NCBI RefSeq assembly: GCF_033025475.1
Contig: NZ_CP130322.1
Coordinates: 2,981,001-3,045,000, forward strand
Source of the DNA: Sphingomonas sp. C3-2
Lineage (GTDB): Bacteria > Pseudomonadota > Alphaproteobacteria > Sphingomonadales > Sphingomonadaceae
Reading direction: 5' to 3'
Length of the DNA: 64,000 bases
Shown: piece by piece, positions 8,101 through 30,105 of the stretch
Layout: each line of letters begins with the position of its first letter
Numbering within the stretch: position 1 is the first letter of the stretch
The notes under the pieces: generated by a model
What the model was told of the DNA's origin: nothing
Databases searched by the model: none
What the model saw: only the letters and a program-made list of their open reading frames with translations
Translations under genes and position numbers: made by a program

Positions 8101-9497
8101 TGCGCTTCGCCCGCGAGAATTATGGATTCGAGCTGGGCGTCGGAGAGGATGCCGTCATCGACCAGATGCGCCGGGAGCGAGGGCCGATAGCTCGGCACCG
8201 GCGGCGGCACCGAAGCCATCGACGCCGACTGGACCAGCGGAGTCGGATGCGGCCGGGCGCCGGGGATGCGGATTGATTGGAGCGCATAGGGCTCGTAGAT
8301 CGCATCGGTCAGATGGCCGTGACCCGGGACAGCTTCAGCGCAGGGCGTATAGGCCAGCTCGATGCCCTCGATCACGGGCGCTGGAACCACGGGCCGGGCA
8401 GCGGCGACGCGGCGTACCGGGCGAGCAGCCATCGTCTGGACGGCGAGCGGCGCGCCGGGCGGCGGGGCATCTGGTGCGGGGGTGCGCGGCGGCACCTGAG
8501 CCAGCACCATGTCCAACAGTGCGGACGTATCGGGGGCAACGCCTGGAGCGTCAGGGAAACGGCGCGGATCATCGGCAGGCGTCCGGTCGATGACGGTGAG
8601 CCGCGTGTCGATCGTGGTCCCGTGCTTGCGATAGACGCGGCCGTCGATCGCCGCCGAGAACAGGACGCGGCCACGCTCCTGGAGTGCGACAAACGCTTGC
8701 GTGAAGGCGGGATTGTCGGGCGCGCAGGAGGCGCCGGTGATAACGACAAGACGGCCGCTAGGCCGCAGGCGGGCCAGCGCCGAGCCGATATGGCGCAGCG
8801 CCGCATCCTTCATCCGGGCATCGACATGGGCGATCGCCGAGAATGGCGGGTTCATCACCACCACGTCGGGCACGGCGGCGGGATCGAGATAGTCGTGGAT
8901 ATGAGCGGCATCGTGCGCGGTGACGCCGACCTGCGGGAACAGCAGGTCGAGCAGTGCGGCGCGGGTTTCGGCCAGCTCGTTGAGCATGAGACGGCTGCCT
9001 GCAATCTCGGCCTGGATCGCCAGCAGGCCTGTGCCCGCCGAGGGTTCGAGCACGCGCTCGCCCGGCTGGAAACCGGCCGCGACGCCGGCGACATAGGCGA
9101 GGCCGGCCGGCGTCGAGAATTGCTGGAGCGCCTGGGAGGTTTCCGAGCGGCGGGTATGGGTGGGCATCAACCCCGCGATCTTCTCGATCAACGCGAGACG
9201 TGCTTGCGGATCAGCGTATTTGCGGAAGAGCGTATTGGCGTATTTCCGCAGGAACAGGGTCTGAGCTGCCTCGCAGGCGTCATAGGCCGCCTTCCAGTCC
9301 CACAGCCCTTCGGCGTCGGACCCGCCGAAAGCGGTTTCCATCGCGCCGCGCAGCGCGGGCGCGTCGACGGGACGGCCGCTTTCGAGGTGAGGCAGGATGA
9401 GCTGCGCGGCGGCAAGCAGCTTCTCGGCGGCATCGGCGAAATGACGCGCAGCGCCAAGCGGCACGGCGGCGAGTGCCGTGGAACGTGTGAAGGTCAT
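5163..9497 (-). CDS. Strawberry-notch-type helicase fused to an adenine-specific methyltransferase-like domain
   Basis: A 1,444-residue protein. An N-terminal Rossmann methyltransferase-like region has QQFSTP (125-130), motif I EPSAGTGLLA (151-160) and NPPF (216-219), the N6-adenine MTase signature. A proline-rich linker (about 340-400) precedes an SF2-type ATPase: a GDGTGAGKGRQ P-loop near residue 505, DESHA near 612, then a SATGATT motif. After this comes the strawberry-notch C-terminal helicase domain with GRSNRTNQKQPP. The start at 9497 has a GGAG 8 bases upstream. It is the largest gene of the element backbone and is preceded by one copy of the shared leader. The biological role of bacterial SNO proteins is unresolved. 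A short internal duplication (LRKYA / FRKYA) lies at 83-95. Confidence 0.88.
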   Translation of the reverse strand: MTFTRSTALAAVPLGAARHFADAAEKLLAAAQLILPHLESGRPVDAPALRGAMETAFGGSDAEGLWDWKAAYDACEAAQTLFLRKYANTLFRKYADPQARLALIEKIAGLMPTHTRRSETSQALQQFSTPAGLAYVAGVAAGFQPGERVLEPSAGTGLLAIQAEIAGSRLMLNELAETRAALLDLLFPQVGVTAHDAAHIHDYLDPAAVPDVVVMNPPFSAIAHVDARMKDAALRHIGSALARLRPSGRLVVITGASCAPDNPAFTQAFVALQERGRVLFSAAIDGRVYRKHGTTIDTRLTVIDRTPADDPRRFPDAPGVAPDTSALLDMVLAQVPPRTPAPDAPPPGAPLAVQTMAARPVRRVAAARPVVPAPVIEGIELAYTPCAEAVPGHGHLTDAIYEPYALQSIRIPGARPHPTPLVQSASMASVPPPVPSYRPSLPAHLVDDGILSDAQLESIILAGEAHGEHLAGAWTVDKTWDVISAAPDDAKAAVRFRRGWMLGDGTGAGKGRQVAGIILDNWRKGRRRAVWVSRSETLHQDAMRDWEALGQERLLVTPLSRFRQGKPIMLDEGVLFTTYATLRSQDRGEKASRVQQIVDWLGADFDGVIVFDESHAMANAAGGKSDRGDQAPSKQGRAGLRLQHALPDARIVYVSATGATTVQNLAYAQRLGLWGGEDFPFATRGEFIGAVENGGVAAMEVLARDMKALGLYSARSLSFDGVEYEMLEHALTAPQIAIYDAYAGAFQVIHNNLDAAMRAAGSNLNSQAKSAARSAFESAKQRFFNHLITAMQTPAMIASIERDLEAGHAAIIQIVSTGEALQERRLADIPTEEWDDVRVDVTPREYVLSYLEHSFPVQLYEPFSDSEGNLSSRPVTDKDGHPVESRDAIERRDRMIERLASLAPVPAALDQVLHHFGTDVVAEVTGRSRRIVKRRGSDGIDHFVVENRPGSANISETDAFQSDAKRILIFSDAGGTGRSYHADLGAKNQRLRVHYLLEAGWKADNAIQGFGRSNRTNQKQPPLFRPVTTNVKAQKRFISTIARRLDSLGAITRGQRQTGGQGLFRPEDNLESWYARDALRQLYRLIFSGKVEGCSLGEFEAATGLTLGDEGGLRDELPPITTFLNRMLALTIDLQNILFTRFEDLLTARIEGAIASGTYELGLETLQAESFKIVDRATIYTHPGTRAETRLLTIERKDRNRPVTLDDAFDHLRDRRARLLVNAQSGRAAVQIPTRGLQLDDGSVEARIRLVRPMESTSLPLAAMAETQWREADRGAFERAWQAELVDVPEFATSTMHIVAGLLLPIWKRLPQESTRVYRLQTDDGERIVGRRVSPAWAATATVNDNGPVLAPDAAFTALMNGQAILDLAEGLQLRRVRVMGVHRIELDGFTDTMRDRLKAMGLISEIISWKLRLFIPTGSDGPTVLARLLERYPLQRVGERHAA

Positions 9498-9532
9498 GGG
9501 GAATCTCCGGAAGAGGTGCGGGATCGCAAACC

Positions 9533-9596
9533 GGCGGACCCTCTCTCTCAACCCGCCAGGCTCACCCCGTTCCGGCTTTCCACTTCCTCTCCGAGA
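9533..9596 (-). promoter_or_regulatory. Shared GA-rich hairpin leader, copy A (strawberry-notch unit)
   Basis: Read on the minus strand: a GA-rich box (CGGAGAGGAAGTGG), then GGTGAGCC, then a hairpin with GGCGG/CCGCC arms enclosing TTGAGAGAGAGG. The start codon follows about 36 nt later. The same layout occurs at 10830-10911, 15165-15257 and 16698-16768. Confidence 0.5.
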
Positions 9597-9673
9597 TTAC
9601 GGGTTCCGAACAATGCAAACTGCGCATCCTGCGCCAGCCCGACCGGATCGATACGAGACTCTGACATGCGAAC

Positions 9674-9707
9674 AAAAAAATGGGCGACCCCATGACGGGG
9701 CCGCCCG
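9674..9707 (-). terminator. Rho-independent terminator
   Basis: A 10-bp GC-rich stem with one mismatch (gggcgacccc / ggggccgccc), followed on the minus strand by seven T residues, immediately past the stop at 9714. Confidence 0.9.
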
Positions 9708-9713
9708 GATTGA

Positions 9714-10520
9714 TCAGACTTCCAGATGCCGGGCCTCGTCGATTACGAAGCCGAAGCGCGCGGCGACATATTCATCGGATGGAACGAGGAAACGCCGCTC
9801 ATCACCGTGATCGCGGCGACCGCCGAGCCGCGCGATGCAATCCGTCATTTCGGGATGCTCGTTTGATCGGATTGCGGACACGACCACCCAGTCGTGCCGG
9901 TGGTTATCGCCAAAAAGCCGCCGGTCATTCTCGACAGATTCACCGGGCGCCAGGAAACGACCGTGGATCGCCTCCCAGCAGTTCGGGTAATAGTCGCGCA
10001 GTGTCTTCTCTGCATGACGCCGTTCATAGGCCGTGAAGAGATCGGGGAAGCCCGTCGCGACCTTCGCCCATTCTGCATCTTCTTCATACCAGCTACCGGC
10101 AACCCTTATGGCCGCTGGCATCCTCGCGTTATGCGCGCGATCGAGCTTGATGCCTCCATGGCTGGCGGTGGAATGGAAGACCACGCCATCGGCGTAGATC
10201 TCGCTGGACTGGGATTTTCCCCAGGGCGTCGCAACCTTTCCGTTACCGCGTTTGCGATCGAGCCTCAGTAATTCCTCCCTGTGCCGGACCAGTTCGGCGA
10301 TTAGGTTATTGAACCCCAGCGCATCCGCGACGACGGCGATTGCGCCATGGAAATCATCGCGCCGCCATTCGCTCATCGGCTTGCGGAGCCGCCAGCGGTT
10401 CGCGACCCGCAGGCCGCTCCGACCTGGAATGGCGGCGTAGGCAGTGTCGTCGACAAGCGCGGCGAGATCGCCATCGACGGTGCGGCCATAGGTGGCCGGA
10501 ACCAAAGGCGCCGCGTTCAT
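9714..10520 (-). CDS. Hypothetical protein of the element backbone (268 aa)
   Basis: A 268-residue protein with no membrane segment or signal peptide. It is rich in Trp, Arg and Asp (WRRDDFHGAIAVVADALGFNNLI, then YYPNCWEAIHG). I recall similar proteins annotated as a DUF family in rhizobial and sphingomonad plasmids but cannot name it with certainty. It overlaps the upstream gene by ATGA at 10517-10520, so translation is coupled, and the unit ends at the terminator at 9674. No function is assigned. Confidence 0.75.
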   Translation of the reverse strand: MNAAPLVPATYGRTVDGDLAALVDDTAYAAIPGRSGLRVANRWRLRKPMSEWRRDDFHGAIAVVADALGFNNLIAELVRHREELLRLDRKRGNGKVATPWGKSQSSEIYADGVVFHSTASHGGIKLDRAHNARMPAAIRVAGSWYEEDAEWAKVATGFPDLFTAYERRHAEKTLRDYYPNCWEAIHGRFLAPGESVENDRRLFGDNHRHDWVVVSAIRSNEHPEMTDCIARLGGRRDHGDERRFLVPSDEYVAARFGFVIDEARHLEV

Positions 10521-10774
10521 GCCGCCCTCCTGAGGGTCGAGACGACGGGTTCATCCTCGACAAGCTGGAGGACGAGATTGGAATAGCGGTTCCGGGAAAC
10601 CCAGCTTTCGGCGTCCGCCATATTGGCGGCAAGATGTTGTAGTTCGTGCTTACCGTTCCAGCGGGTGAGAACCCGCACCATGCCCGGCTGCGGCAATTCG
10701 AGAACGTCGAATCGAAGGTCGGTCGTGACCATATAGTGTCGACGCACGACAAGGACCGGCGTGATGCCGGACAT
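10517..10774 (-). CDS. Hypothetical protein (85 aa)
   Basis: Starts MSGITPVLVVRRH at the ATG at 10774, which has GAGGG 8 bases upstream. A longer frame opens at 10825, but that ATG lacks a well-placed RBS and would bring the protein to within 4 nt of the shared leader hairpin. The compact sequence looks beta-rich and has no recognisable motif. It is the first gene of a two-gene unit with 9714-10520. Confidence 0.6.
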   Translation of the reverse strand: MSGITPVLVVRRHYMVTTDLRFDVLELPQPGMVRVLTRWNGKHELQHLAANMADAESWVSRNRYSNLVLQLVEDEPVVSTLRRAA

Positions 10775-10829
10775 GAAGGTACCCTCGTGGAGCACGAAGC
10801 TTGCCGGGTAGGTGCTGCCGCCCATAACC

Positions 10830-10911
10830 GCCGACCGCTCTCTCTCAAGCCGGCCGGCTCACCCGCTTCCCCGCCGCCCTCTCACTCTGGCCGCCGGTCC
10901 GGAGACGCAGC
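10830..10911 (-). promoter_or_regulatory. Shared GA-rich hairpin leader, copy B
   Basis: Minus strand: CTGCGTCT, then AGAGTGAGAGGG, then GGGTGAGCC. A hairpin follows with 8-bp arms (one mismatch) enclosing a CTTGAGAGAGAG loop. The CTGCGTCT and AGAGTGAGAGGG blocks are identical to those of copy C upstream of the ParB gene. Confidence 0.55.
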
Positions 10912-10925
10912 CGACGACAGACCGA

Positions 10926-11120
10926 TCACTCCCTCAGCGACCCTGCGGCAATATCCGCCAGCCACTCCAGGGCCTCTTCCACGTCTGCGTTATCCTCTTC
11001 GACAAGCCGCGCGAGAGCGACAGCGCCGTTGCGGCCCAATTGGCCAAGGCGCTGAAGTACGGTGAGCAACACAGGCGCAAGCGCCTCCGGGCCGGCGTTT
11101 TCGATGTCGGAAATCTTCAT
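10926..11120 (-). CDS. Small hypothetical protein (64 aa)
   Basis: A 64-residue acidic, helical protein (MKISDIENAGPEALAPVLL, ending in AAGSLRE) with GGAG 9 bases before the ATG. It is the most distal gene of the minus-strand run that starts at the ParB gene, but a terminator lies between it and its upstream neighbour, so it may rely on read-through or its own promoter. No domain recognised. Confidence 0.6.
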   Translation of the reverse strand: MKISDIENAGPEALAPVLLTVLQRLGQLGRNGAVALARLVEEDNADVEEALEWLADIAAGSLRE

Positions 11121-11145
11121 GGGTCAGTCTCCATTGCCTGGGAGG

Positions 11146-11175
11146 AAAAGACCCGAGCGCAGGGCGCCCGGGCGT
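11146..11175 (-). terminator. Terminator-like hairpin after the 251-aa gene
   Basis: A GC-rich stem with two G-U pairs, followed on the minus strand by TCTTTTCC. It lies between the stop at 11210 and the start of the 64-aa gene. Confidence 0.65.
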
Positions 11176-11209
11176 TGATCACCGGCAGAATCCCGCCGGC
11201 CTGCGCGGT

Positions 11210-11965
11210 TCAGCGGGCAGCGAGTTCGCGCTCGGCTGCGAGAGAAATCGCTCGCGTCGCGGCCTTGAAGGCGGCTTCTCCCTCTTCATGGGAGAGATCG
11301 CTCGCCGCCTTCACATCGAGGGACGCCTGACGAATATCCGCGTTGCTCACATCGGCGATCTGGAGACCATCCGGCGCTTCCGTCTCGAAGACCACGTCCA
11401 CTGTCGCGCGGACATGCTCCTCGCAGAGGCGAAGCAGGACATGCGAGCCGAGCCCCGGCTCGACGCCGAGCGGCCCATATTCCGCGATGCCGAGCATTTC
11501 ATCGAGCATGGACTCAGTGCTGCGCACCATGATCTCGTCGGCCGTGATCAGCACGGCCATGCCGCCGAAACCGTCTGGCCGCATTTTCGTGCAGGTCCAG
11601 GCGGACATGGCGGAGACATAAGGAAGTGCGGACGAGCGCCGGACGATGCTCTGGAAAAACACTTCCCAACTGGAATCCGACAGGTCCAGTTGCAGATAGG
11701 CGTCATCATCACCGAGTTCGGCGAGGCCCGCCCGGACCGTGTCTGCTGCCGCGCTTTCAATATCGCCGGACAAGGCGAGTGCTGCGCGGACCTCGTCGAC
11801 AGGATAGGCGGGCATGTCATTGGCGCCCTGTTCGGCATAGAAATAGAGGCCGTCTCCATCAACTTCACTGCTGAAGATGCGCGAGAGGATCAGCCGTTCA
11901 AGCGCGGTCATCGCGCTCAGCGGAATGGTGGGCTGGACCACCGTGGAACAGTAATAATCAGCCAT
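11210..11965 (-). CDS. Hypothetical protein (251 aa)
   Basis: An acidic soluble protein beginning MADYYCSTVVQPTIPLS. It contains LERLILSRIFSSEVDGDGLYFYAEQG and other stretches that read as a mixed alpha/beta domain. A GGAGACC sits just upstream of the ATG. I recognise no catalytic motif. It occupies the region between ParB and the strawberry-notch gene, which is typically filled with hypothetical DUF proteins in these elements. Confidence 0.75.
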   Translation of the reverse strand: MADYYCSTVVQPTIPLSAMTALERLILSRIFSSEVDGDGLYFYAEQGANDMPAYPVDEVRAALALSGDIESAAADTVRAGLAELGDDDAYLQLDLSDSSWEVFFQSIVRRSSALPYVSAMSAWTCTKMRPDGFGGMAVLITADEIMVRSTESMLDEMLGIAEYGPLGVEPGLGSHVLLRLCEEHVRATVDVVFETEAPDGLQIADVSNADIRQASLDVKAASDLSHEEGEAAFKAATRAISLAAERELAAR

Positions 11966-11977
11966 ATCGGGTCTCCA

Positions 11978-12008
11978 AAAACGCGAAAGCCCGGCGCGTG
12001 GCCGGGCT
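11978..12008 (-). terminator. Rho-independent terminator (recycled sequence, copy 1)
   Basis: A perfect 8-bp stem (agcccggc / gccgggct) with a gcgtg loop, followed on the minus strand by TTTCGCGTTTTT. The stem and loop are nearly identical to the terminator at 12905-12932. Confidence 0.85.
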
Positions 12009-12033
12009 CTCGATGAAGGTGATGGGGTATAAA

Positions 12034-12408
12034 TCAGGACGCTGGGGGGCTTTCGATCGCGAAAGGGTCCACCAGCTTGTGGATCGGCTGCGCGCGGCCC
12101 ATCCAGGGCTGCGGCCGGATGCAGCGCACCCAGTCCGCGAAGCTCGGTATGAAGCCGAGATCCTCCAGGACATGTTGTTCACCGATCAAGCGGGCCGGAA
12201 CGACCCGGCCGCTTGTGACCGTGATGGTCGCGCCGAAAAACCGCTCGAGCATGAAAATGCCCTCGGCGTGATGGCGCAGCGCGCGGTGGCGGAAGTCAGC
12301 GGTGATCGCCTTGGACTCGTCGAACCACTGATGCAGTGGCAGATAATCCTCGGCCGAGCCGCCCCATTTCCGCACGGACGAGAGCGCGTGATGATAGCAA
12401 TGGCCCAT
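12034..12408 (-). CDS. Hypothetical protein of the DUF6915-like type (124 aa)
   Basis: Starts MGHCYHHALSSVRKWGG and continues YLPLHQWFDESKA, FRHRALRHHAEGI and PARLIGEQHVLEDLGFIPS. The His/Trp-rich pattern matches what I recall as the DUF6915 family, common in alphaproteobacterial plasmids; the exact family number is from memory. Of two adjacent ATGs, the one at 12408 gives the better spacing to AGGGAGG. Function unknown. Confidence 0.75.
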   Translation of the reverse strand: MGHCYHHALSSVRKWGGSAEDYLPLHQWFDESKAITADFRHRALRHHAEGIFMLERFFGATITVTSGRVVPARLIGEQHVLEDLGFIPSFADWVRCIRPQPWMGRAQPIHKLVDPFAIESPPAS

Positions 12409-12418
12409 CATCGCCTCC

Positions 12419-12889
12419 CTATAATTCGTAATAATGGTTTTCAGACCGTTCGATCCGATAATTGAAATCGATCACGACAGTCCCGGCGGCGACGTCAAAG
12501 GTGAACTCGCCATAGCCGCCTTCATTGTTCTCCCAGCCGCCATGCTTGCTTTCGAGGAGGTCGTAACACATCGCCTCGATCGCATCCGAGAGTGGGACCG
12601 TTACATGCCGGACCTCCTCGTCGTGACATTCACAGCGAGCGAGCACGACAGATGTATCGGGCAGGTCAGCACTGCTCTCACCGGAGCGCGCGTCAATCTC
12701 TTCGATCTGACCGCTGTCACCGCCGCCATCGAACCGCACAGTGACAAGGGTGATGCCAGATCCTGCCAGAACAGACAGGACGGCAGCCTTATTGGCGGGA
12801 AAGATCTCGCTCGCTCGTTTCTCATATTCCGCCTGGCGTGCCAGGAAGGCGGTCATGTCGAACGTGGGAACAAAAGGCGTATTGCTCAT
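12419..12889 (-). CDS. Hypothetical protein (DUF6878-like, 156 aa)
   Basis: Begins MSNTPFVPTFDMTAFLARQ. The ATG at 12889 has CGGAGATC just upstream; the longer frame has none. The C-terminal half (ESKHGGWENNEGGYGEFTF, then VIDFNYRIERSENHYYEL) is a distinctive beta-rich segment I associate with DUF6878, recalled without verification. It is separated from the next gene downstream by only 10 bp, suggesting co-transcription. Function unknown. Confidence 0.72.
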   Translation of the reverse strand: MSNTPFVPTFDMTAFLARQAEYEKRASEIFPANKAAVLSVLAGSGITLVTVRFDGGGDSGQIEEIDARSGESSADLPDTSVVLARCECHDEEVRHVTVPLSDAIEAMCYDLLESKHGGWENNEGGYGEFTFDVAAGTVVIDFNYRIERSENHYYEL

Positions 12890-12904
12890 TGTCGATCTCC
12901 GAAA

Positions 12905-12932
12905 ATGAATAAGCCCGGCGCGTGGCCGAGCT
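12905..12932 (-). terminator. Terminator downstream of the ParB gene (recycled sequence, copy 2)
   Basis: Stem agcccggc / gccgagct with the same gcgtg loop as the hairpin at 11978-12008, followed on the minus strand by TTATTCATTTTC. Confidence 0.65.
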
Positions 12933-13000
12933 GAGAATGGGATTGTAAGAAAGACGGTGCGGGACGAGGCAGCGACTGCCAGCTCGCCCCGCACCAGCAT

Positions 13001-15151
13001 TCAGGCGGCGATATCGTATTCTTCGTCGCCCTCCTGGTCGTTGGCGGCTTCCTGCTCGGCGAAGGTGTCATCCCCGTCGAGGAAGGCCGGCAGCGCGTCC
13101 GCCTCACCCGTCAGCGGCAGCGGCTCATCGATGACCGGGGTCCGCAGCGGCTCGGGGAGCCAGTCCGCATCGGCCAGCAGGCGTTCGGCCTCGCGCGCCA
13201 TGTCGCCCTTCTTCAGATGGTCGATCAGGCCCGCGGTTTGCGGTCCCTTCGCCTCGGCGACCGCCTCGAGGATGCGCGGTTTCGCGACCCGGTTGAGGTA
13301 GTTGTCGAAGGTCGGACGCCAGCCCGCGCCGATCATGTCGAGACCCACCGCACGCGCCAGCACATTGGCATGGTCGATACGGCGGGCGACGCAGCGTACG
13401 GAGACACGGCCACCGCCATGCTTGGGGACCGGCTCCCACTGTGCGTTCACCGAATAGGCGGCGCAATGGGCGAACAGACTGGCCTGTTCGCTGCCGTCGA
13501 GCTGCTGGAGCGCATCCCAGACATCCTTGTCGGCCTGGGGAAGCCGCTCCTTCCAGCGGGCGTGACGCTCCTGGATGGATGCCGCCGACGGACTGCTGCG
13601 CAGGTCAGCGCCCTGGAACGGCATGGAGACGCGGTGGACGCCCAGTTCCATGCAGCTTTCGGTACGGCCGATGTAGAAGACCGAGAGCACCATGGCGTGC
13701 AGCACGGCGGCGAAGGCCACCGAAGGCGACTGCGCGAAGGCATCCTGAAGCGCCAACGTGCGGGCCGCGGTCAGTTCGGCGACGAGCCGGTCCGGGAGCG
13801 GCTTGATGACCTCGCCGTCGTCATCGTCATCATTCGTCGTCGGCGCGGCCGGGGCCGTGCGGGCTTCGGGATCGGCAACTTGCCCGCCGATCTCATCGGG
13901 GGAGTGGTCAGATCGGGCATCGGACGCCTCTTCGGCGCCGTCGTCGGCATCTTCCGCCTCCGGCTCATCCTCGGCGCGGACATAACCGCGATCGATATAG
14001 AGTGTGCCGTCGTCCTCGAGACCGATGAACACACCGGCATTGTCGATCTCGGCAGCATCGAACACCCGGTTGCCCTGGGCGAGAACACCCAGCTCGGCGT
14101 CGATGGCGGAGACCCGCAGCTCCACGTCGGCCGGAATGTCGGGCTTGCCGTCCCATTTGGCCTCAAGAGCATCAGCCTCGGCCCGCAGGGCGACGATTTG
14201 CGCCTCCTGCGCCTCGGACAGCGGCTGCACCTGGCTGGCGATGGCACGGCAGTCCTCGTCATAGCCGTAGGGAAGATCGACCAGCGCCTCGACCCACTTC
14301 CAGCCTTCACCCATGACCGTGTCGGCTTCCACGCGCAGCTTCTCGTCGACCAGACGGTCGAGCAGGGCCGGGTCGGAGAGCCAGCCGCCATCGTCGGGTT
14401 CGAACAGGTCGCGGATGGGACCAGCGCCGCCGGCGGCGATATAGGCGTCCAGCCCGATGAAGCGGACACGCTTGTCCGTCACCTCGACCTTGTCCTCCAG
14501 CAGCTTGGACTTGATGAACCAGGACGACTTGTTGTTGCTTTGCGCGAGTTGCGCCCACAGATCCTCCTGACGCTGGTGACCGTCGCTCACCGTAAACGCC
14601 ATGAGCTGGTCGAGGGTCATGTCGCCTTCGGCATAGCATTCGTGCAAGGCAGGCGAGACTGACGCGAGCTTGAGGCGCTGGCGAACGACGGCAGGCGTCA
14701 CGCGGAAGTGGGCGGCGATCGCCTCCTCCTGCTCGCCCTTGTCGAACAGGGTCTTCATCGCCCGGAATTCATCGAGCGGGTGGAGTGGCTCGCGCTCGCT
14801 GTTCTCGGCGAGCGAATCTTCTTCGGCCGGGACCGGATCGTTCGCCGCCTTGACCACGCAGGGAACCGGCGCATCCTTGGCGAGCCGCTTGCGCTTCACC
14901 AGGATCGCCAGCGCACTGTAGCGGCGGCCACCGGCGGGGATCTCGAACATGCCGGTGTCTTCGCCAGCCTCGTCGAGCACGGGCCGGACGTTGAGGCCGG
15001 TGAGCAGGCCGCGGCGTTCGATATCATTGGCCAGATGCTCGATGGTCACGCCATGCTTCACGCGGCGGACGTTCGATTGCGAAAGGACCAGTCTGTCGAA
15101 CGGAATGTTCTGGGACTGGTTGAGGGTGATCTTCGATGGGGCTTTCGCCAT
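13001..15151 (-). CDS. Large ParB/RepB/Spo0J-family protein
   Basis: A 716-residue protein. The N-terminal ParB/Srx domain (about 10-110) includes SNVRRVKHG, ANDIERRGLLTGLNV and IPAGGRRYSAL (71-81), the CTP-binding-type motif of the family. A helix-turn-helix region follows (AAHFRVTPAVVRQRLKLASVSP). The rest is a long extension with an acidic low-complexity patch (EDEPEAEDADDGAEEA) and a conserved-looking C-terminal domain. Chromosomal ParB is about 300 aa, so this is the oversized mobile-element type. The ATG at 15151 follows GGAGACGTGTC. No parA neighbour is visible, so a role in transcription or replication control is as likely as partition. Confidence 0.88.
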   Translation of the reverse strand: MAKAPSKITLNQSQNIPFDRLVLSQSNVRRVKHGVTIEHLANDIERRGLLTGLNVRPVLDEAGEDTGMFEIPAGGRRYSALAILVKRKRLAKDAPVPCVVKAANDPVPAEEDSLAENSEREPLHPLDEFRAMKTLFDKGEQEEAIAAHFRVTPAVVRQRLKLASVSPALHECYAEGDMTLDQLMAFTVSDGHQRQEDLWAQLAQSNNKSSWFIKSKLLEDKVEVTDKRVRFIGLDAYIAAGGAGPIRDLFEPDDGGWLSDPALLDRLVDEKLRVEADTVMGEGWKWVEALVDLPYGYDEDCRAIASQVQPLSEAQEAQIVALRAEADALEAKWDGKPDIPADVELRVSAIDAELGVLAQGNRVFDAAEIDNAGVFIGLEDDGTLYIDRGYVRAEDEPEAEDADDGAEEASDARSDHSPDEIGGQVADPEARTAPAAPTTNDDDDDGEVIKPLPDRLVAELTAARTLALQDAFAQSPSVAFAAVLHAMVLSVFYIGRTESCMELGVHRVSMPFQGADLRSSPSAASIQERHARWKERLPQADKDVWDALQQLDGSEQASLFAHCAAYSVNAQWEPVPKHGGGRVSVRCVARRIDHANVLARAVGLDMIGAGWRPTFDNYLNRVAKPRILEAVAEAKGPQTAGLIDHLKKGDMAREAERLLADADWLPEPLRTPVIDEPLPLTGEADALPAFLDGDDTFAEQEAANDQEGDEEYDIAA

Positions 15152-15164
15152 GACACGTCTCCAT

Positions 15165-15257
15165 GACGGGCGGCCGGAAGTCTCTCTCCCAGCCTCCAAC
15201 CCGTCACGAAAACCAGGGCCTCCCTCTCACTCTTTCCAGCCGGCAGGCAAGACGCAG
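15165..15257 (-). promoter_or_regulatory. Shared GA-rich hairpin leader, copy C (ParB unit)
   Basis: Minus strand: CTGCGTCT, then AAGAGTGAGAGGG, then GTGACGGGTTGGAGG, a GGGAGAGAG loop and CCGCCCGTC. The GACGGG/CCCGTC arms can pair, and the start codon follows 14 nt later with its GGAGAC Shine-Dalgarno just outside the hairpin. Confidence 0.6.
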
Positions 15258-15275
15258 CGGATTTGCGGAAATCCG
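15258..15275. promoter_or_regulatory. Perfect inverted repeat upstream of the ParB unit
   Basis: cggattt-gcgg-aaatccg is a perfect 7-bp inverted repeat with a 4-base spacer, at the upstream edge of leader copy C. A dimeric repressor site (for example ParB or XRE) is inferred. Confidence 0.4.
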
Positions 15276-15356
15276 TATTGTCGGATCTACGAAAGGACAC
15301 TGCGTAGCTCGTGCTCAAACCGCTGCGGTTCGGTGGGAAGGAGTATTCGGCCACCA

Positions 15357-15713
15357 TCACCGATATTCATCGGGCAAATCCTCCTGGTTGCCCTGCCAGA
15401 TAATCCGGTCACCCTCATAAACGGTGACCATGCCATCATGGGCCGGGACCGACATCGCGGCGTCGGCCTGGAAGTTGAGGCAGGTGAAGCCGGGCGCGGT
15501 GGCGGAAAAGCTCACAGGCCGCCCCTCGGCGATCAGTACCCGATCACACTGGCCGATTGGCTGTTTCACAGGGCGTTTCGTTATACCTGCGCGAAACGCG
15601 TCGAATGCCGCAAGAAGCGTTGCAGCAGGCGCATGCCAGTGACGACAATGGCGGCAGCACCGGAGGCGATGCTGTAGTTCTCGTCCCGCCGGACGGTCCT
15701 TATGGCCGCTCAT
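15357..15713 (-). CDS. Hypothetical protein translationally coupled to ardC (118 aa)
   Basis: The ATG at 15713 overlaps the ardC stop (ATGA). The N-terminus is basic and Cys/His-rich (HRLRCCRHCRHWHA); the C-terminal half looks like a small beta domain (MVTVYEGDRIIWQGNQEDLP). The real start could be internal, because the Arg/Cys-rich N-terminus partly resembles shadow coding. Existence is supported mainly by the overlap and the well-formed C-terminus. Confidence 0.5.
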   Translation of the reverse strand: MSGHKDRPAGRELQHRLRCCRHCRHWHAPAATLLAAFDAFRAGITKRPVKQPIGQCDRVLIAEGRPVSFSATAPGFTCLNFQADAAMSVPAHDGMVTVYEGDRIIWQGNQEDLPDEYR

Positions 15714-16684
15714 GACACGGCACCGTCGACCGCGGAGGATCGAGATCCTGCTCTTCGTTGTCGTTGGGCCGTGGCAAGGACTGGCCGGAATGCGAGAATA
15801 TGACCCGCCGCGCGAGATGCGGCGCTTGCTGCCTTAAGGACCGCTTTGTTGTCTTCGCGCATAAGCGCAAGCCAGGCGCCGATATAGTCGCTGTGACGAA
15901 CGGTGGGCACGATCCCGAGTTCGGCGCAAAGGAAGGCGCCCGAAAGCTCAGCGACCAGTTCTTCGCGGGCATAGGCGTCGGTTCCGAATGTCTCCGCCTG
16001 GTTTCGATCGAGGCGTGAACGGTGGCCGGTCCAGTGCGACAGCTCATGAAATGCTGTTCGATGCCAGTCGATGGGTTCAAAGAAATCCGCAGGGCACGGC
16101 ACCTGCACGAAATCATGAAGCGGATCATAGAAGGCTTGCGTCCCGCCGATCCGGAAATCAGCGCCAGTTTCCTGGATCAGCGCCTCGGCTGCGGGAATGA
16201 TGAGGGAGGTGTCCGGCGCGCGCTGCGAGCTTGTGAACTCAGAGGGCAGGCCATCGCACTGATCGACCGAGAAGACCGTGAAGTGCCGGAGGAACGGGAC
16301 TGAGGCGACCGGCTCACGGCCTTCGTGTTGGGCGCACAGGCGTTCGTCACGGGTGGCGACGCGGTGTGTGTAGATGATATCGGTGCCCTGTTCGCCCCGG
16401 CGAACCGTGCCGCCCAGCGAGCGGGCCTGCCGAAACGTCAGGAAGCCCTGTCCGGAAAGCCCTCTTGAAGCCATCGCGTGCCAAAGGGTCAGGACATTGA
16501 TGCCGCTGTATTTCCGGCCACTGACGATGTTAAAGGGTATGCCCACCGGAGCAGCGGCACTGGCCCAGGGCTGGACCCAAGGCACGCTTCCCGCCTCCAG
16601 TTCGGCGATGATACGATCGGTAATCGTCTGATGTAGATTAGTCCGGGCAGCGCCTTTTCGATGCCCGCGAGAACGATAAGCCAT
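15710..16684 (-). CDS. ardC: ArdC-family antirestriction / ssDNA-binding zincin protein
   Basis: A 324-residue protein. An N-terminal ssDNA-binding ArdC domain (about 15-150: NLHQTITDRIIAELEAG, NIVSGRKYSGINVLTLW, SLGGTVRRGEQG) precedes a C-terminal metallopeptidase-like domain with HELSH at 213-217. These are the two parts of the ArdC/TraC family. ArdC proteins coat incoming single-stranded DNA and shield it from restriction during conjugation. It heads its own unit with a leader copy upstream. The C-terminal tail beyond about residue 300 is basic. Confidence 0.9.
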   Translation of the reverse strand: MAYRSRGHRKGAARTNLHQTITDRIIAELEAGSVPWVQPWASAAAPVGIPFNIVSGRKYSGINVLTLWHAMASRGLSGQGFLTFRQARSLGGTVRRGEQGTDIIYTHRVATRDERLCAQHEGREPVASVPFLRHFTVFSVDQCDGLPSEFTSSQRAPDTSLIIPAAEALIQETGADFRIGGTQAFYDPLHDFVQVPCPADFFEPIDWHRTAFHELSHWTGHRSRLDRNQAETFGTDAYAREELVAELSGAFLCAELGIVPTVRHSDYIGAWLALMREDNKAVLKAASAASRAAGHILAFRPVLATAQRQRRAGSRSSAVDGAVS

Positions 16685-16697
16685 CGCGTGTCTCCGC

Positions 16698-16768
16698 GAC
16701 GGGCGGCGCGAGGCTCTCTCGCACCCCTCAACCCGTCACGGCCGAACCCGGCCTTCCTCTTTCTCTAG
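16698..16768 (-). promoter_or_regulatory. Shared GA-rich hairpin leader, copy D (ardC unit)
   Basis: Minus strand: TAGAGAAAGAGGAAGG, a GGCCGGGTTCGGCC mini-hairpin, GTGACGGGTTGAGG, GAGAGAGCC and GCCCGTC. The GACGGG/CCCGTC arms match copy C and are followed by GGAGAC before the ATG. Confidence 0.6.
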
Positions 16769-16896
16769 GTTCTATGTGGCAGCGTACAATCAGCCGCGCG
16801 GCTCACCGCCAAGAGGGCGGTGTCCCCCTGTGATGCCCAAGCTTTGCGTGTCGTTCTCTCGCTACACTTCAGGTGCGACTTGAGCGATCCAGCATG

Positions 16897-17997
16897 TCAG
16901 TTCGTTACAGGGGTCTGGGTTGGCGCACGTTTAAGTTCGATCTTCTGCCAACGAACATCAGCACGTGAAAGAAGATCAGGACTATCTCCCAAGAGATGAA
17001 CGGCGAGATTTTGTGTCTGTCCTAGCCGGACCACTTCTTCGAAAGATACTGCGTGGATAGAACGCGCCTTGTCAGTCGGGCCAATGCGCAGCGTCAGGTA
17101 AATCGACCCATTTGGGCCAAGCAGCCCGCCAAGACGCTGCAAGGCCTTTGGGCGATCGGCGGGAAGTATGTGCATCCAGACCGCGCTCAGCATGATCAGA
17201 TCATAGCCCCCGCTCGGAACGCTGCGTAAATCCGGCAAGGCGTCATCGATCCACACGACCTTGTCGGACCGATGACGCATTTTCGCGAGCTGTCGCATCT
17301 TGGAGGATGGCTCGACTGCGATGACGTCGTGGCCATGTCCGGCAACCCAGGCAGCATCACGCCCCGAGCCGGCGCCGATTTCGAGTACTTTCAGGCGCGC
17401 ATTCGAGGTCAACAACGGGACAAGGTCAGGATGCGCCGCTTCGAAACTGATCGCCTCATAGCCGTCAGCCAACTCGGCGGCGTGCCGGTCATAATAGGCG
17501 ATCGAGGAGCGGCTGGTCGGATCCGAGGACATTGAAGGACAAAAAACTCCGGCGAGGAATGCTATGACTGCGGCGACGGCGCCGAGCAGCTCCTGGCGAT
17601 AGGTGACACCGATGAGGAAGAGACTGATCGCGGTGGCCAAGCCCAGCAGCCACTGAAACGTGCGCTGGACCAGTCGGCTCCGTGTAAACAGGCTTTCACC
17701 CTTGGCCGAGACATGACCTTCGGGATAGGCGTTCTCGAACCAGGTCAAATAGCAGCCCATGATATAGCGCAGTCGTCCCAGGGCGACGATGAGACCCATA
17801 TTCCCTACTGCCGCCAGAAGCAGCAGGCAGACCTGGAATGCCTTGTTGGCCTCGACTTTTGACACACCGAACCAGAGACCGCCCGTCAGCGTCATTGCGA
17901 TTAGCGGAATCTGCCACATCAGACCGTTGAGCGACCGGAAATGCTCCGCATTCTGGTTGTAGGCGGCCAGAAACTTGTCGTCGTCGAACTTGGCCAA
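16897..17997 (-). CDS. Membrane-anchored SAM-dependent methyltransferase at the end of the dnd operon
   Basis: A 366-residue two-part protein. The N-terminal 155 residues hold four predicted TM helices (about 26-45, 53-76, 114-133, 136-153) in two pairs with a soluble loop between. A class I methyltransferase follows: motif I VLEIGAGSGRD (204-214), acidic post-I EP at 229-230, then DLIMLSAVWMHI (266-277). This MTase type usually acts on small molecules, lipids or proteins rather than DNA, and no NPPY-type DNA motif is visible. The start is TTG at 17997 with GGAAGGAAGCAGG upstream; there is no early ATG. It lies 21 bp after dndA on the same strand, so co-transcription with dndBCDEA is likely. 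I know of no standard Dnd component with this architecture. Confidence 0.85.
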   Translation of the reverse strand: MAKFDDDKFLAAYNQNAEHFRSLNGLMWQIPLIAMTLTGGLWFGVSKVEANKAFQVCLLLLAAVGNMGLIVALGRLRYIMGCYLTWFENAYPEGHVSAKGESLFTRSRLVQRTFQWLLGLATAISLFLIGVTYRQELLGAVAAVIAFLAGVFCPSMSSDPTSRSSIAYYDRHAAELADGYEAISFEAAHPDLVPLLTSNARLKVLEIGAGSGRDAAWVAGHGHDVIAVEPSSKMRQLAKMRHRSDKVVWIDDALPDLRSVPSGGYDLIMLSAVWMHILPADRPKALQRLGGLLGPNGSIYLTLRIGPTDKARSIHAVSFEEVVRLGQTQNLAVHLLGDSPDLLSRADVRWQKIELKRAPTQTPVTN

Positions 17998-18018: not shown

Positions 18019-19182
18019 TCAGGCCGCGAATCTTCGCAGGGTTTCGACTTCGGACACCAGGCGCCGGGCAAAATCGAGCAGTGCCCCCTTATCCGTAAAA
18101 CGCCCCGGAGCAACGCGGAACGCCTGCCGGGCGCGCGCTGTGTCGCCGAACATCGCGAGCAGGACCGGGCTGGTCTCCACCTTTTCAGTCGAGCAGGCGC
18201 TCGATGCCGAAAAGCTCGCGATGTCATTGAGCTTGTGCATCAAGGCCAGCGGTTCGACACCTTCGATAGAAAGCGAGTTGTTGCCTGCGAGGCGCTGGAC
18301 CGGATGGCCGTTGAAGGAGACGCCCTCGAGATTGGCGGCAACATAGTCCCGGAAGGCCGATGATATAGCCTGCAAGCGCGCCGCATCCGCCGCTCCTTGC
18401 CGCGCGGCGATCGAAATAGCCTCTCCCATACCAACGATCAGGGGAACATTGAGCGTCCCGGACCGCAGGCCCTTTTCCTGGCCGCCGCCATATTGAATGG
18501 GCACCAGTCGCGCACGCGGAGAGCGTGACCGGGCATAGAGCGCCCCCACGCCCTTAGGCCCGTAAGCCTTGTGGCCCGACAGGCTGGCCAGATGCACATG
18601 GTCGGCAATGACGTCGATCTGACCCTGAGCCATGATCTGGGCCAGGTCGACGTGGAATAGAACGCCAGCCTCCTTGCAGACCATTCCAATCTCGCTGATC
18701 GGCTGAATGGTCCCGACCTCATTGTTGGCGGCCATGATCGAGACCAAAAGCGTATCAGCACGCAGCGCTGCCTTCACATCCTCTGGCGAGACCATGCCCG
18801 ACTCGTCGACGGGCAGAATGGTGAGCGACCAGCCCTCGCGCTCCAGTTGCCGACAAGGTTCAATGACCGAGGGATGCTCGATCGCGGTGGTGATGAGATG
18901 TTTCTTGTCAGGCTGCGCGCGCGCAGATCCCAGGATGGCGATATTATTGGCTTCAGTGCAACTGCCGGTGAAGATGATCTCATTCTCGCGGGCACCGATC
19001 GCCTGAGCGACCTGCTCGCGGGCAACCTTCACAGCGGCCTGCGCCCGGTTGCCGTGCACATGTTCAACGCTCGACGGATTGCCGAATATGTCGGTGAAAA
19101 AGGGTAGCATCTTGTCGACCACGCGCGGGTCGGTCGGGGTCGTGGCATTATGGTCGAGATAGAGCGGGGTGACGCTACTCAT
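18019..19182 (-). CDS. dndA: Cysteine desulfurase DndA (DNA phosphorothioation)
   Basis: A 387-residue PLP-dependent NifS/IscS-type enzyme. Residues present: EHPSV with the PLP-stacking His at 103, FHVDLAQ (176-182), the Schiff-base Lys 205 in SGHKAYGPKG, and the catalytic Cys 330 in SSACSTEK. In DNA phosphorothioation DndA takes sulfur from cysteine and passes it to DndC. The ATG overlaps the dndE stop (ATGA at 19179-19182), so translation is coupled. Keeping dndA inside the operon, as here, is one of the known arrangements; many loci borrow a chromosomal IscS instead. Confidence 0.92.
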   Translation of the reverse strand: MSSVTPLYLDHNATTPTDPRVVDKMLPFFTDIFGNPSSVEHVHGNRAQAAVKVAREQVAQAIGARENEIIFTGSCTEANNIAILGSARAQPDKKHLITTAIEHPSVIEPCRQLEREGWSLTILPVDESGMVSPEDVKAALRADTLLVSIMAANNEVGTIQPISEIGMVCKEAGVLFHVDLAQIMAQGQIDVIADHVHLASLSGHKAYGPKGVGALYARSRSPRARLVPIQYGGGQEKGLRSGTLNVPLIVGMGEAISIAARQGAADAARLQAISSAFRDYVAANLEGVSFNGHPVQRLAGNNSLSIEGVEPLALMHKLNDIASFSASSACSTEKVETSPVLLAMFGDTARARQAFRVAPGRFTDKGALLDFARRLVSEVETLRRFAA

Positions 19183-19556
19183 GCCACCATCGCCAGGCGC
19201 GTGAGGTCAGCGGGCGCTTTGGCCCGAACGGCTAGGGTCGCGACACCGCGATGGATATGCGCGCGCAGCCGGGCTACGAGTTCGTCACTTTCGAGCGGCT
19301 CCGACAACCCCGGCTCCACCTCCTCGACATAGCGCAGCAAGGCCGCGATGAGCCCGTTATAGTCGCCTGTCAGTGTGTAAGCGTTGAATTCCTGGCCATT
19401 CTCGTCCGGCCGAGCGCCCGCACCCACCGGGCCTTCCTCGAGCGAAAGCATGATTGCCGCGCGGCACAGGAGATTGGGCGTTAGACCGGTGCGTTGGCGC
19501 AGCGAGCGCAGACGGCTCGTGGCATCGGCTGAGATTTTAAGCTTGTTGAAGCGCAT
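19179..19556 (-). CDS. dndE: DNA sulfur modification protein DndE
   Basis: A 125-residue protein starting MRFNKLKISADATSRLR, with the family-typical RTGLTPNLLCRAAIMLSLEEGP. DndE is a small, basic, essential partner of the DndCDE complex, reported to bind nicked DNA. The start at 19556 overlaps the end of dndD by 20 bp. Upstream in-frame codons lie inside dndD and do not resemble DndE. Length is normal for the family. Confidence 0.92.
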   Translation of the reverse strand: MRFNKLKISADATSRLRSLRQRTGLTPNLLCRAAIMLSLEEGPVGAGARPDENGQEFNAYTLTGDYNGLIAALLRYVEEVEPGLSEPLESDELVARLRAHIHRGVATLAVRAKAPADLTRLAMVA

Positions 19557-21522
19557 CGCTCGCTCCCTCTTCGTCATGAAAATAGCCCGGGCTGACCTTG
19601 GTAGCGCGCAGGTCATGATCATAGTCGAGCCTGAAGCTGTGGCTGATATTCGGTCCAAGCTTTTCGAGCAGCCCATCATCGATTTCGGTGTCTGTCGACA
19701 GCACGATGACCTGATGGCTTGCCTCTGGGAAATAGCGCTCGACCAATGCGGCGCGATGCTCGGTATCGAGGCGGGCCAGCGGGGTGTCGATAATCATCGG
19801 CAACTGGCGACCGCTGGTATGAGCCAAGGCCCAGAGCATGGCGATCGCGTAGATCTGCTTCTCGCCGGCGGAGAGGCTGGACTTGTGCAATTCCCTGCCT
19901 TTGGCATCGATCAGCACCGCATCAAAGGTCGAGCGATCAATCCGCACATCGGCGACGAATGCTTCCTTCCGCGCCAGGTGATTGAAGCGCTGGACGAACG
20001 CGGTCTTGAGCTGGGCGAGCTTCAGATCGAGCAACTGCTCTTCATAACGCTGAAGGACGGTGCCGACGCGCTGGGCAAGACCAGCGCGGCCTTCCGCGTC
20101 ACGGACTTCATTCTGCGCTTCCTCCAGCTTGCGCTTTTCGCGCTGCAAGCTGATCTTGCGGAATTCCAGAACTCGAAGCTCTTCGGTCCTGGCGGTAAGT
20201 TGCGCAGCGGCCGATGCCAGTTGCACTTCTGCCTGGTTGAGCTCTTCGAATACGACACCGGTCGCCTGACCTGCCGCGCGAACAAGTTCTGCCTCGATTT
20301 CGCGCAGCCGATTGGCGTGTGCGTCCAGGTCCGAGGTCAACAGTCGCGCGCGCGCCGAGGTCTGGTCGCGCACTTCCTCAAGGCGGGCGAGCAGGCCGCG
20401 CCGCTCCCCGACTTCGAGCCACGACAATTCGGTATCGGTCGGCGTTGACTGATCGGATGCCAAGAAGCTTTCAAGATCGTCCCAATGCGCCTTCTTCCAG
20501 CCGCCCTTGCGTTCAGGCTGGCCCGTCGCACGCCACTCCAGCAGGCGTTGCCGCATCAAGGCGAGCGCACCATCGAGGCCGGGATCGCCCGCCAGCGCCA
20601 AAGCCTTGGTGAACCGGCCGATGAGCTTGGGTGCCATCGCGAACGGCAGCAGTCCCCCTGCGATTTCCTTCAGCTCATTCTGGCGTCGGGCGATCTGCGA
20701 TTTAACCTCCGTGCGCGCGGCTTCCAGCGACACGCGCTGGCTTGCCGCATCGCCGCCCTCCGCCACGAAACGCTGCCGGATATTCTGGGCGTGGCGCTCC
20801 TGGCCGGCATGAACCGAACGCAATTCGGCGACGTCTTCGGCCATGCGCGCGATTTCAGCCTCCACGGCGCCGATCTCGCGAACGCATTCCTCATAGCGTT
20901 TTGCCGCCGTGCGGTCCTCGCTTCTGGCGTGCCGAGCGAGATAGAGGCCGAGGTCGGTGCGCAGACGCTCGACCAGTTCGATGCCCAGCAGACCGCGAAC
21001 GGCTTCTGCCAGACCTTCATCAGGTCCATCATGGGCGATTTCCGCGATCTTCTCCCCATCGAAGAAGAAGAGCTGCGAGACGCCGGGCGGGATCAGTTCC
21101 TGAAGGAAATTCTGCCATTCCTCGCGCGGAACCTTCTGGACCGGTGCCCCGTCTTTTTCGAGGAGAAGGGTTTCGGTCGTGCGCTTATCGGTGACCGACC
21201 ACCGGCGGATCACGCGGTAGCGATGGACCAGTCCGTCTTCGGTATAGTCGAAATCGAGGCCCACTGAGGCATGGGTCGCCTGTTCATGGGCACCAAGGTG
21301 GATCCGGCGGCGCAAATGTTGCTCGTAGGAAGATTGCGCCACCCGGAAGCCCAGCGCCCGGCGACCGTAGAGCGCCAGACGCACGGCCTCGAGCAAGGTG
21401 GTCTTGCCGGCACCGTTTCGGCCACCCAGAAGAATGACCGGCCGTCCGCGCGGAACCAGGTCCAGCGTCTGCAATCCCGCATAGAGGCCGAAATTCTCAA
21501 GTTGTATGGATCGCAGGATCAT
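19537..21522 (-). CDS. dndD: DNA sulfur modification ATPase DndD
   Basis: A 661-residue SMC/RecN/Rad50-like ATPase. The Walker A GGRNGAGKTT is at 33-42, a long coiled-coil arm covers roughly 200-540, and near the C-terminus come the ABC signature LSAGEKQIYAIAM and Walker B PMIIDTPLARLD. It belongs to the DndCDE complex; its ATPase is thought to open or nick DNA for sulfur insertion. The ATG at 21522 lies 7 bp after the dndC stop; a longer frame upstream overlaps dndC and is not protein-like. Confidence 0.94.
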   Translation of the reverse strand: MILRSIQLENFGLYAGLQTLDLVPRGRPVILLGGRNGAGKTTLLEAVRLALYGRRALGFRVAQSSYEQHLRRRIHLGAHEQATHASVGLDFDYTEDGLVHRYRVIRRWSVTDKRTTETLLLEKDGAPVQKVPREEWQNFLQELIPPGVSQLFFFDGEKIAEIAHDGPDEGLAEAVRGLLGIELVERLRTDLGLYLARHARSEDRTAAKRYEECVREIGAVEAEIARMAEDVAELRSVHAGQERHAQNIRQRFVAEGGDAASQRVSLEAARTEVKSQIARRQNELKEIAGGLLPFAMAPKLIGRFTKALALAGDPGLDGALALMRQRLLEWRATGQPERKGGWKKAHWDDLESFLASDQSTPTDTELSWLEVGERRGLLARLEEVRDQTSARARLLTSDLDAHANRLREIEAELVRAAGQATGVVFEELNQAEVQLASAAAQLTARTEELRVLEFRKISLQREKRKLEEAQNEVRDAEGRAGLAQRVGTVLQRYEEQLLDLKLAQLKTAFVQRFNHLARKEAFVADVRIDRSTFDAVLIDAKGRELHKSSLSAGEKQIYAIAMLWALAHTSGRQLPMIIDTPLARLDTEHRAALVERYFPEASHQVIVLSTDTEIDDGLLEKLGPNISHSFRLDYDHDLRATKVSPGYFHDEEGASDALQQA

Positions 21523-21529
21523 CGTGCTG

Positions 21530-23011: not shown

Positions 23012-23035
23012 ACTCTTTAATCACGCCTAGCAGGA

Positions 23036-29615: not shown

Positions 29616-30039
<424 letters not shown>

Positions 30040-30105
30040 TGGGTGCCTATCGCTTCGCAGCGTGTGATGGCGCTTAGCAAAGCAATTTGCGCTTGGCGAG
30101 AGGGT

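Follow-up and report, generated by a model that had tools for sequence, protein, structure and literature searches.

In leaders of the riboswitch or autogenous type that sequester the Shine-Dalgarno sequence (SD), the SD is taken up in a helix formed with an arm upstream of it, and the radC RNA motif stands upstream of DNA-handling genes. The latter is catalogued as RF01754 (PMC2864571). EGeRS1, an element of 420-750 bp from Bacillus plasmids of the pLS20 family, is repeated directly upstream of the ribosome-binding sites of establishment genes including ardC and is predicted to fold; EGeRS1-B, for which no promoter was found, blocks read-through, and the authors leave open whether single-stranded DNA or RNA is the relevant form (PMC8708921). 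As routes by which establishment genes are switched, the same paper lists promoters on single-stranded DNA, a repressor system and EGeRS1 itself, which is unexplained (PMC8708921). The Frpo/ssi elements are hairpins with -35/-10 elements that precede leading-region genes in conjugative plasmids and from which transcription proceeds on single-stranded DNA (PMC11541004). We analyzed a 64,000-nucleotide stretch of Sphingomonas sp. C3-2 (NZ_CP130322.1, positions 2,981,001 to 3,045,000; hereafter the window), in which four genes of a mobile-element backbone are each preceded by a short leader with a GA-rich box and a GAGAGAG loop. We computed for these leaders a family, two stems, a sense-strand bias, SD pairing in one of two types, and a position before certain kinds of genes (ArdC, Antirestrict, ParB-like, DUF932-type, strawberry-notch, RadC, toprim, nuclease and DUF6878). 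We consider it probable that they are cis-acting mRNA leaders gating the translation of establishment-type genes and read by a putative factor.

A sequence-only reading of the window had reported one common order of motifs in front of the strawberry-notch, 85-aa, ParB-like and ardC genes. The GA-box, GTGA, GAGAGAG stem and SD do follow one another in this order before all four (Table 1), in two architectures rather than one: type 1 (ardC, ParB-like) and type 2 (strawberry-notch, 85-aa). The identical 12-letter GA-box described for two copies was recovered as AGAGTGAGAGGG in the ParB and 85-aa leaders, the GAGAGAG loop was found in four of four, and complementary arms close it in each (GACGGG/CCCGTC for ardC and ParB, GCCGGCCG/CGGTCGGC for the 85-aa gene, GGCGG/CCGCC for strawberry-notch); GTGA..GGGTTG held in three copies and failed in the 85-aa copy, which reads GGCTTG. 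GAGAGAG by itself is not enriched (8 occurrences in the window, 8.01 expected), and GGGTTG-N0-14-GAGAGAG occurs 3 times in the window for 0.04 expected; the pattern GGGTTG-N0-20-GAGAGAG has 3 copies in the whole genome (3,529,048 bases), all in these leaders.

Two covariance models were built, R1 from 12 sequences including the window ardC and ParB leaders (94 positions) and R2 from 18 sequences including the window strawberry-notch and 85-aa leaders (102 positions). Searching the Sphingomonas genome with R1 retrieved the ParB (E 1.3e-19) and ardC (E 1.6e-18) leaders, with the next two matches at E 9.88, and searching with R2 retrieved the strawberry-notch (7.1e-14), 85-aa (7.8e-12), ardC (0.127) and ParB (0.247) leaders, with the next match at 4.87. 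Only the four leaders stand above noise in this 3.53-Mb genome with the two models, which were partly built from them.

The leaders are about 85-110 nt long and end at the start codon. In the type-1 alignment, the 5' portion comprises the GA-box, the arm CCGUGACGGG, a bulge (UUGAGG or UUGGAGG) and an inner stem capped by GAGAGAG, and the 3' portion comprises the arm CCCGUCGCGG ending in the GG of the SD, followed by AG, a short spacer and the ATG. The sequence-only reading had overlooked that the segment directly after the GA-box pairs with both the 3' arm and the SD in a single helix. Type-2 leaders keep the same order. Their GA-box is able to pair with CUCUCC, a CU-box that lies beside the SD, and in some members CCGGGA is able to pair with UCCCGG at the SD; the predicted type-2 fold depends on the method, RNAalifold pairing the GAGAG loop with the CU-box and single folds mostly pairing the GA-box instead. 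In the window, the CCGGAA:TTCCGG pairing of the strawberry-notch leader is present in both the minimum free energy (MFE) and centroid folds with a probability of about 0.56, the SD of the ParB leader is paired in its MFE fold, and the 85-aa leader has a diverged 3' part; a 102-aa open reading frame (ORF; 10517-10825) in frame with the 85-aa gene begins inside this leader. The two types look like one superfamily because each type's model finds the other's leaders: R1 weakly matches type-2 leaders, R2 matches type-1 leaders, and the best four R2 matches in the Sphingomonas genome are the four leaders.

Additional hairpins can be drawn around this core. A second small hairpin, CGCGG/CCGCG, is possible between the outer stem and the ATG, where it would take part of the SD as an alternative to the outer stem; the leaders concerned, mostly of ardC, lie at L054 12480, L055 12640, L060 5857, L012 10560 and L017 14996 (GTCGCGGAGATCCGCGATG) (numbered comparison loci and positions). 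In L013, L015, L052, L053, L056-L058, L062, L063 and L068, the GA-box of ardC and DUF932-type leaders is preceded by a conserved stretch resembling CCCCTTCTGCGGGGAGACCCCGCAACGCCCC, which varies slightly and forms a strong hairpin; the 3' half of this hairpin may compete with the segments that follow. For some ParB leaders a 5' hairpin with the GA-box in its loop is drawable, and was rejected as the group folds give it no support.

To assemble the type-1 set, we retained 67 leaders at E <= 1e-6 from 40 sources. In the alignment fitted to the model, 96.2% of cells pair, two-sided change is seen in 13 of 18 pairs, where shuffles give 5.8, and the covariation score is 0.357 against 0.213 in shuffles (0/500). 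Since a fitted alignment leans towards its model, we repeated the analysis on a sequence-only MAFFT alignment of the 67 leaders with the helix extended over the SD. Here 91.7% of cells pair, against 40-48% when the arms are slid, and two-sided change occurs in 13 of 22 pairs against 8.5 in shuffles (1/500 as high) and in 88 cells against 28 (0/500); all 8 pairs of the inner stem are compensated, and RNAalifold recovers both stems unaided. G-U cells number 221 and A-C cells 12 in the type-1 stems, an imbalance that favours the sense strand as the folding strand; we take it as a sign pointing to a sense-strand fold, not as proof, as the purine-rich 5' arms add a bias of their own. The earlier argument that these are RNA structures and not protein sites on DNA, which hinged on covariation, is upheld by these figures. 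An operator for a DNA-binding protein would account for a conserved site that recurs in front of co-located genes, but we hold it to be highly improbable, given arm sequences that drift while complementarity is kept, the G-U strand bias, and a position fixed relative to the SD and start codon.

We then examined the pairing of the SD itself. In the sequence-only alignment, pairing with the 5' arm is found for the letters aligned to the SD bases G-G-A-G in 60, 63, 46 and 58 of the 67 leaders, respectively. When the 5' and 3' segments of type-1 leaders were swapped between leaders (70 of 72 rows used), own segments paired at -25.7 kcal/mol against -24.3 kcal/mol for permuted ones (standard deviation 0.26; 0/5000), the 5' arm fitting its own SD-to-ATG stretch better than permuted stretches. 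In some leaders, as in L052 (GGGAUUUCC with GGAGAAAUCCC), the fit extends beyond the SD and includes bases of the spacer; column by column, no extension of the helix past the SD was detected (best excess pairing over expectation 0.15). At least 2 of the 4 SD bases are paired in 67 of the 70 type-1 reduced folds. Pairing of the SD to its 5' side reaches 0.77 in the 67 leaders, compared with 0.39 in 58 other genes of annotated loci (p 2e-7), and overall SD pairing reaches 0.84 compared with 0.67 (p 2e-4). For type 2, 2 of 5000 permutations were as good as the own partners (27 of 30 rows used). Across relatives, the SD is thus predicted to be helixed with an upstream arm, as in SD-sequestering leaders, for type 1 and more weakly for type 2. 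For the SD bases as such, the evidence lies in pairing that is conserved, the changes there being mostly one-sided.

Several observations weigh against a gating role for this fold. In the outer pairs on the SD side (columns 29-36 with 79-85), change is mostly one-sided (G-U), two-sided change being seen in 0-2 of 67 leaders, and the relatedness of the leaders remains in the shuffle controls. All four SD bases are paired in just 44 of 70 type-1 reduced folds, SD pairing is also high in the control genes because the genomes are GC-rich, and the type-2 SD is often incompletely paired, with 3 of 30 leaders lacking an SD-like word. Single-sequence folds of the 85-aa (z -0.99) and strawberry-notch (z +0.21) leaders are no better than shuffles; those of the ardC and ParB leaders beat them (Table 1). 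The AGAG box and loop are predicted to be paired about 43% of the time and are therefore not strictly single-stranded, and no trans factor was found among box complements in the window or by ORF clustering over 40 loci.

In the mechanism that we propose, the segment after the GA-box would serve as an anti-SD arm. Because the SD is part of the type-1 outer stem (CCGUGACGGG / CCCGUCGCGG), the default fold would hide the ribosome-binding site and would lower translation. A common factor, protein or RNA, would read the AGAG box and the loop and open or lock the fold; the backbone genes would thereby respond together, a control that may matter at establishment in a new host, as the sequence-only reading had also suggested. 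The specific form of a regulon acting at the RNA level, in which the leader marks antirestriction, partition-like and DNA-handling genes of alphaproteobacterial mobile elements, and these genes, untranslated while their SD is hidden, are released on arrival in the host by one factor reading AGAG-N2-AGAG and the loop, with no shared promoter, is a tentative proposal that we rate as somewhat unlikely.

The case for a reading factor starts from the GA-box, which is AGAG-N2-AGAG, with columns 8-9 invariant in 67/67 leaders and columns 12-15 nearly so (64-66 leaders); the GAGAG of the loop is almost as constant in type-1 leaders. The stems leave this constancy unexplained, and, judging from the letters, a partner that recognises box and loop is therefore likely. 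Three candidates were tried and set aside. Sites of CTCTCACTCT in the window (<= 1 mismatch), sought as an antisense RNA, were the antisense of two GA-boxes alone (10-mer complement, <= 1 mismatch: 2 found, 2.08 expected). No shared small regulator gene was evident in the rough ORF clustering. Against an assumed alphaproteobacterial 16S rRNA tail, the loop pairs at -10.2 kcal/mol (shuffled -8.4) and the GA-box at -9.6 (shuffled -8.8), a small gain for the loop and less for the box; two exact 16S-tail patterns gave no match in the Sphingomonas genome, and these energies rest on the assumed tail. Such values bear on the view that the leader is structural and unregulated, its hairpin and GA-box tuning or insulating translation (ribosome standby, mRNA stability) with no switch. 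A purine-rich, SD-like box and loop could indeed hold a 30S subunit beside the SD, as the pairing energies and the lack of a regulator candidate would allow; yet the gain of the box over shuffles is small, AGAG-N2-AGAG is not a perfect anti-SD complement, the 16S-tail patterns found no match, and near-invariance across gene families suggests specific recognition, so that we regard an unregulated leader as unlikely.

As a separate observation, an ar14 small RNA (RF02344, loops CUCCUCCC) lies at L016 9204-9327 on a Rhizobium plasmid, about 5.7 kb upstream of a GA-leader.

The genes behind the leaders were sorted by N-terminal motifs, three of them by hand and a few being truncated. The 67 type-1 leaders precede 34 ParB-like, 16 ardC, 11 DUF932-type and 6 other genes; in L017 a transposase follows the leader. 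R2 gave 27 matches at E <= 0.001 in 41 sources, 18 of them its own building sequences, with strawberry-notch as the commonest gene behind them. Pfam confirmed RadC (L065), DUF6878 (L060, L071) and toprim (L016) proteins, an Antirestrict-family protein in L056 (a Pfam family distinct from ArdC) and a nuclease (SNase) behind a weak leader match at L075 4233; the DUF932 match in L058 is under the Pfam cut-off, the name resting also on annotated plasmids, and three further leader genes had no Pfam match. The window ParB-like gene clusters with an L015 gene annotated ParB. Clustering the ORFs of the 40 loci, a rough procedure that also counted antisense ORFs, yielded ParB-like, toprim, DUF2493, strawberry-notch, ardC, DUF736, DUF6878 and DUF932 families, named in part from annotated members and Pfam. 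In 52.4 of 61 cases, where 24.8 would be expected, the nearest leader from a different locus stands before a gene of the same type; leaders go with their gene type and therefore look like old paralogues rather than recent copies.

The spread of the leaders was assessed by BLAST and by model search. At E <= 0.001, one ardC leader matched 131 plasmid records, and in 68 at least 80% of the leader was covered; at a loose E <= 1, the window ParB leader matched 202 plasmid records (31 covering 80%) and the window ardC leader 129 (59 covering 80%). The hosts that we recognised among the matches listed are Alphaproteobacteria. R1 at E <= 0.01, with strict filters that may lose weak matches, found 1-4 places each in 27 of 385 genomes of the class (own included), from 24 of 277 genera and 21 families. 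In a phylum sample whose non-class share is not stated, 34 of 398 genomes matched at E <= 0.001, all of the window's class, including 4 of the 19 genomes listed for the window's family (own included). Such patchy presence is expected of mobile elements. Phage carriage was set aside, with one weak, partial match in 50,697 phage records and 0 exact pattern matches in viral_contigs. The comparison with Rfam proposed by the sequence-only reading left the leaders without a family: at the gathering score of Rfam 15 the window yields two tRNAs only, none of 6 matches in E-value mode over 9000-17500 falls on a leader, and no leader was matched in L008-L017, nor in E-value mode on L014 14900-28700. For radC RNA (RF01754), none of 17 matches in the Sphingomonas genome (E <= 10) lies in the window, the best scoring 25.8 bits for a cut-off of 40, and a class search at E <= 0.001 returned 0 of 190 genomes, the controls likewise having no match, so that this zero does not by itself speak for absence. 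Our literature search, which covered few subscription journals and no preprints, found the leader described nowhere.

Some leaders sit within runs of genes. In L075, L073 and L077 the leader of the ParB-like gene directly follows the TGA of a 120-128-aa gene that has a leader-like match itself (E 0.0003-0.0009), and the GA-rich box after the TGA (AAGTGAGAG in L077) leaves scant room for a promoter; for 28 of 72 leaders, a crude ORF criterion places an upstream ORF on the same strand no more than 100 nt away. No sigma-70-like site or -35/-10 match was found on the window leaders, and the one promoter-like site in 9000-17500 is inside ardC. These data bear on a promoter of the Frpo/ssi type acting on the transferred single strand in the recipient. 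In its favour, leading-region-type genes (ardC, ParB-like, and an SSB gene) are present with hairpins directly upstream, but the leaders lack -35/-10 matches, the hairpin stops at the SD, some 10 nt short of the ATG, and sense-strand G-U cells far exceed A-C cells where a template-strand fold predicts the reverse; we consider such a promoter very unlikely.

Transcriptional control could also act through the leader blocking read-through, like EGeRS1, or antiterminating past terminator-like hairpins between genes. Such hairpins number 12 on both strands (6.1 expected, standard deviation 2.5), some of them between leader-bearing genes, and 17 genes in 14 of 40 loci have a terminator-like perfect-stem hairpin and T-run abutting the SD (a raw count, without a chance expectation); moreover, EGeRS1-B blocks read-through (PMC8708921). 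Against this, no U-run follows the leader stems, where an intrinsic terminator would have one and the SD stands instead, the one terminator-like match nearby (16702-16681) covers the ardC SD and ATG and not the leader stem, and a fold coupled to the SD and the SD-ATG spacer is a feature of the translation type. We judge transcriptional control decidedly unlikely.

The terminator-like hairpins, often GCCCGGCC..GCCGGGC followed by a T-run, are found at the SD of DUF6878, DUF932-type and toprim genes in some elements, and GA-leaders precede these families in others; in the window, the DUF6878 gene (start 12889) and a 251-aa gene (start 11965) are of the terminator-like kind. Their occurrence at the SD of three of the same gene families fits a gating role of the leader. 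That one gene family can carry either device suggests that both may do a similar job, keeping expression low by default.

Beside the backbone lies a dnd DNA phosphorothioation gene set (Table 1), in which the roles of DndC, DndD and DndA are putative. Part of a tRNA gene is present in two 50-nt copies that are 90% alike, at 29785-29834 (inside the tRNA at 29761-29834) and 29997-30046; they could mark an integration site.

Table 1. Leaders, genes and neighbouring features (window positions unless a locus is named).
Feature	Position	Strand	Basis or remark
ardC leader, type 1	16679..16771	-	sequence; R1 87.2 bits; fold z -2.99
ardC leader, GA-box AGAGAAAGAGG	16766-16756	-	sequence
ardC leader, outer-stem 5' arm; GAGAGAG loop; 3' arm CCCGTC	16741-16732; 16720-16714; 16703-16698	-	
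ardC leader, SD GGAG; ATG	16695-16692; 16684	-	
ardC, 324 aa, ArdcN + zincin-like metallopeptidase	15710..16684	-	Pfam PF08401, PF18818
ParB-like gene leader, type 1	15146..15238	-	sequence; R1 91.5 bits; fold z -4.25
ParB leader, GA-box AGAGTGAGAGGG	15233-15222	-	sequence
ParB leader, GACGGG; loop; CCCGTC	15205-15200; 15188-15182; 15170-15165	-	
ParB leader, SD GGAG; ATG	15162-15159; 15151	-	
ParB-like gene, 716 aa	13001..15151	-	ParB_N E 0.0023, under Pfam cut-off
85-aa gene leader, type 2	10786..10892	-	sequence; R2 65.5 bits
85-aa leader, GA-box AGAGTGAGAGGG	10888-10877	-	sequence
85-aa leader, stem GCCGGCCG / CGGTCGGC; loop	10858-10851 / 10837-10830; 10846-10838	-	
85-aa gene	10517..10774	-	no Pfam match at E 0.01
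Strawberry-notch gene leader, type 2	9495..9594	-	sequence; R2 74.2 bits
Strawberry-notch leader, GA-box AGAGGAAGTGG	9590-9580	-	sequence
Strawberry-notch leader, stem GGCGG / CCGCC; loop; ATG	9557-9553 / 9537-9533; 9549-9541; 9497	-	
Strawberry-notch leader, CCGGAA complementary to TTCCGG	9575-9570; 9512-9507	-	TTCCGG overlaps SD GGAG 9508-9505
Strawberry-notch-type helicase gene, 1444 aa	5163..9497	-	Pfam AAA_34, Helicase_C_4
Terminator-like hairpins at SD of next gene	12012-11984; 12932-12912; 11173-11151	-	last two: window scan alone
Terminator-like hairpins at SD, other loci	L008, L009, L013, L015, L016, L055, L056, L058, L059, L063, L066, L075, L078		
dnd DNA phosphorothioation gene set	18019-24163	-	DndB, PAPS-reductase-like DndC, SMC-like DndD, aminotransferase-V desulfurase
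Second DndB-like protein	27932-29272	+	
SSB gene	952-1368		

Switching of the establishment genes of conjugative elements has been described for few systems, to which a compact leader would add a route acting on RNA; if the proposal is true, the genes could be expressed in concert when the element reaches a new host, with no need of a common promoter. The leader also groups the DUF932-type, DUF6878 and 85-aa genes, of undefined function, into one putative regulon, and R1 and R2 give means of finding such elements. Compared with SD-sequestering leaders in general, this is one family over many different mobile-element genes, with a repeated AGAG box. Like Frpo, the leaders place hairpins upstream of genes of the leading-region kind; unlike Frpo, the window leaders are without -35/-10 elements and abut the SD. 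Like EGeRS1, they are present in several copies per element, next to the ribosome-binding site and before establishment-type genes including ardC, are predicted to fold, and can be read as a gate. Unlike EGeRS1 (420-750 bp), they are about 90-105 nt long, short of the 400-750 bp with several branches that mark that family, and two-sided covariation and SD pairing were computed for them. On this comparison EGeRS1 is the closest known system in logic, and, because it is 420-750 bp long and comes from Bacillus plasmids, we would class the two as functional analogues rather than as members of one family.

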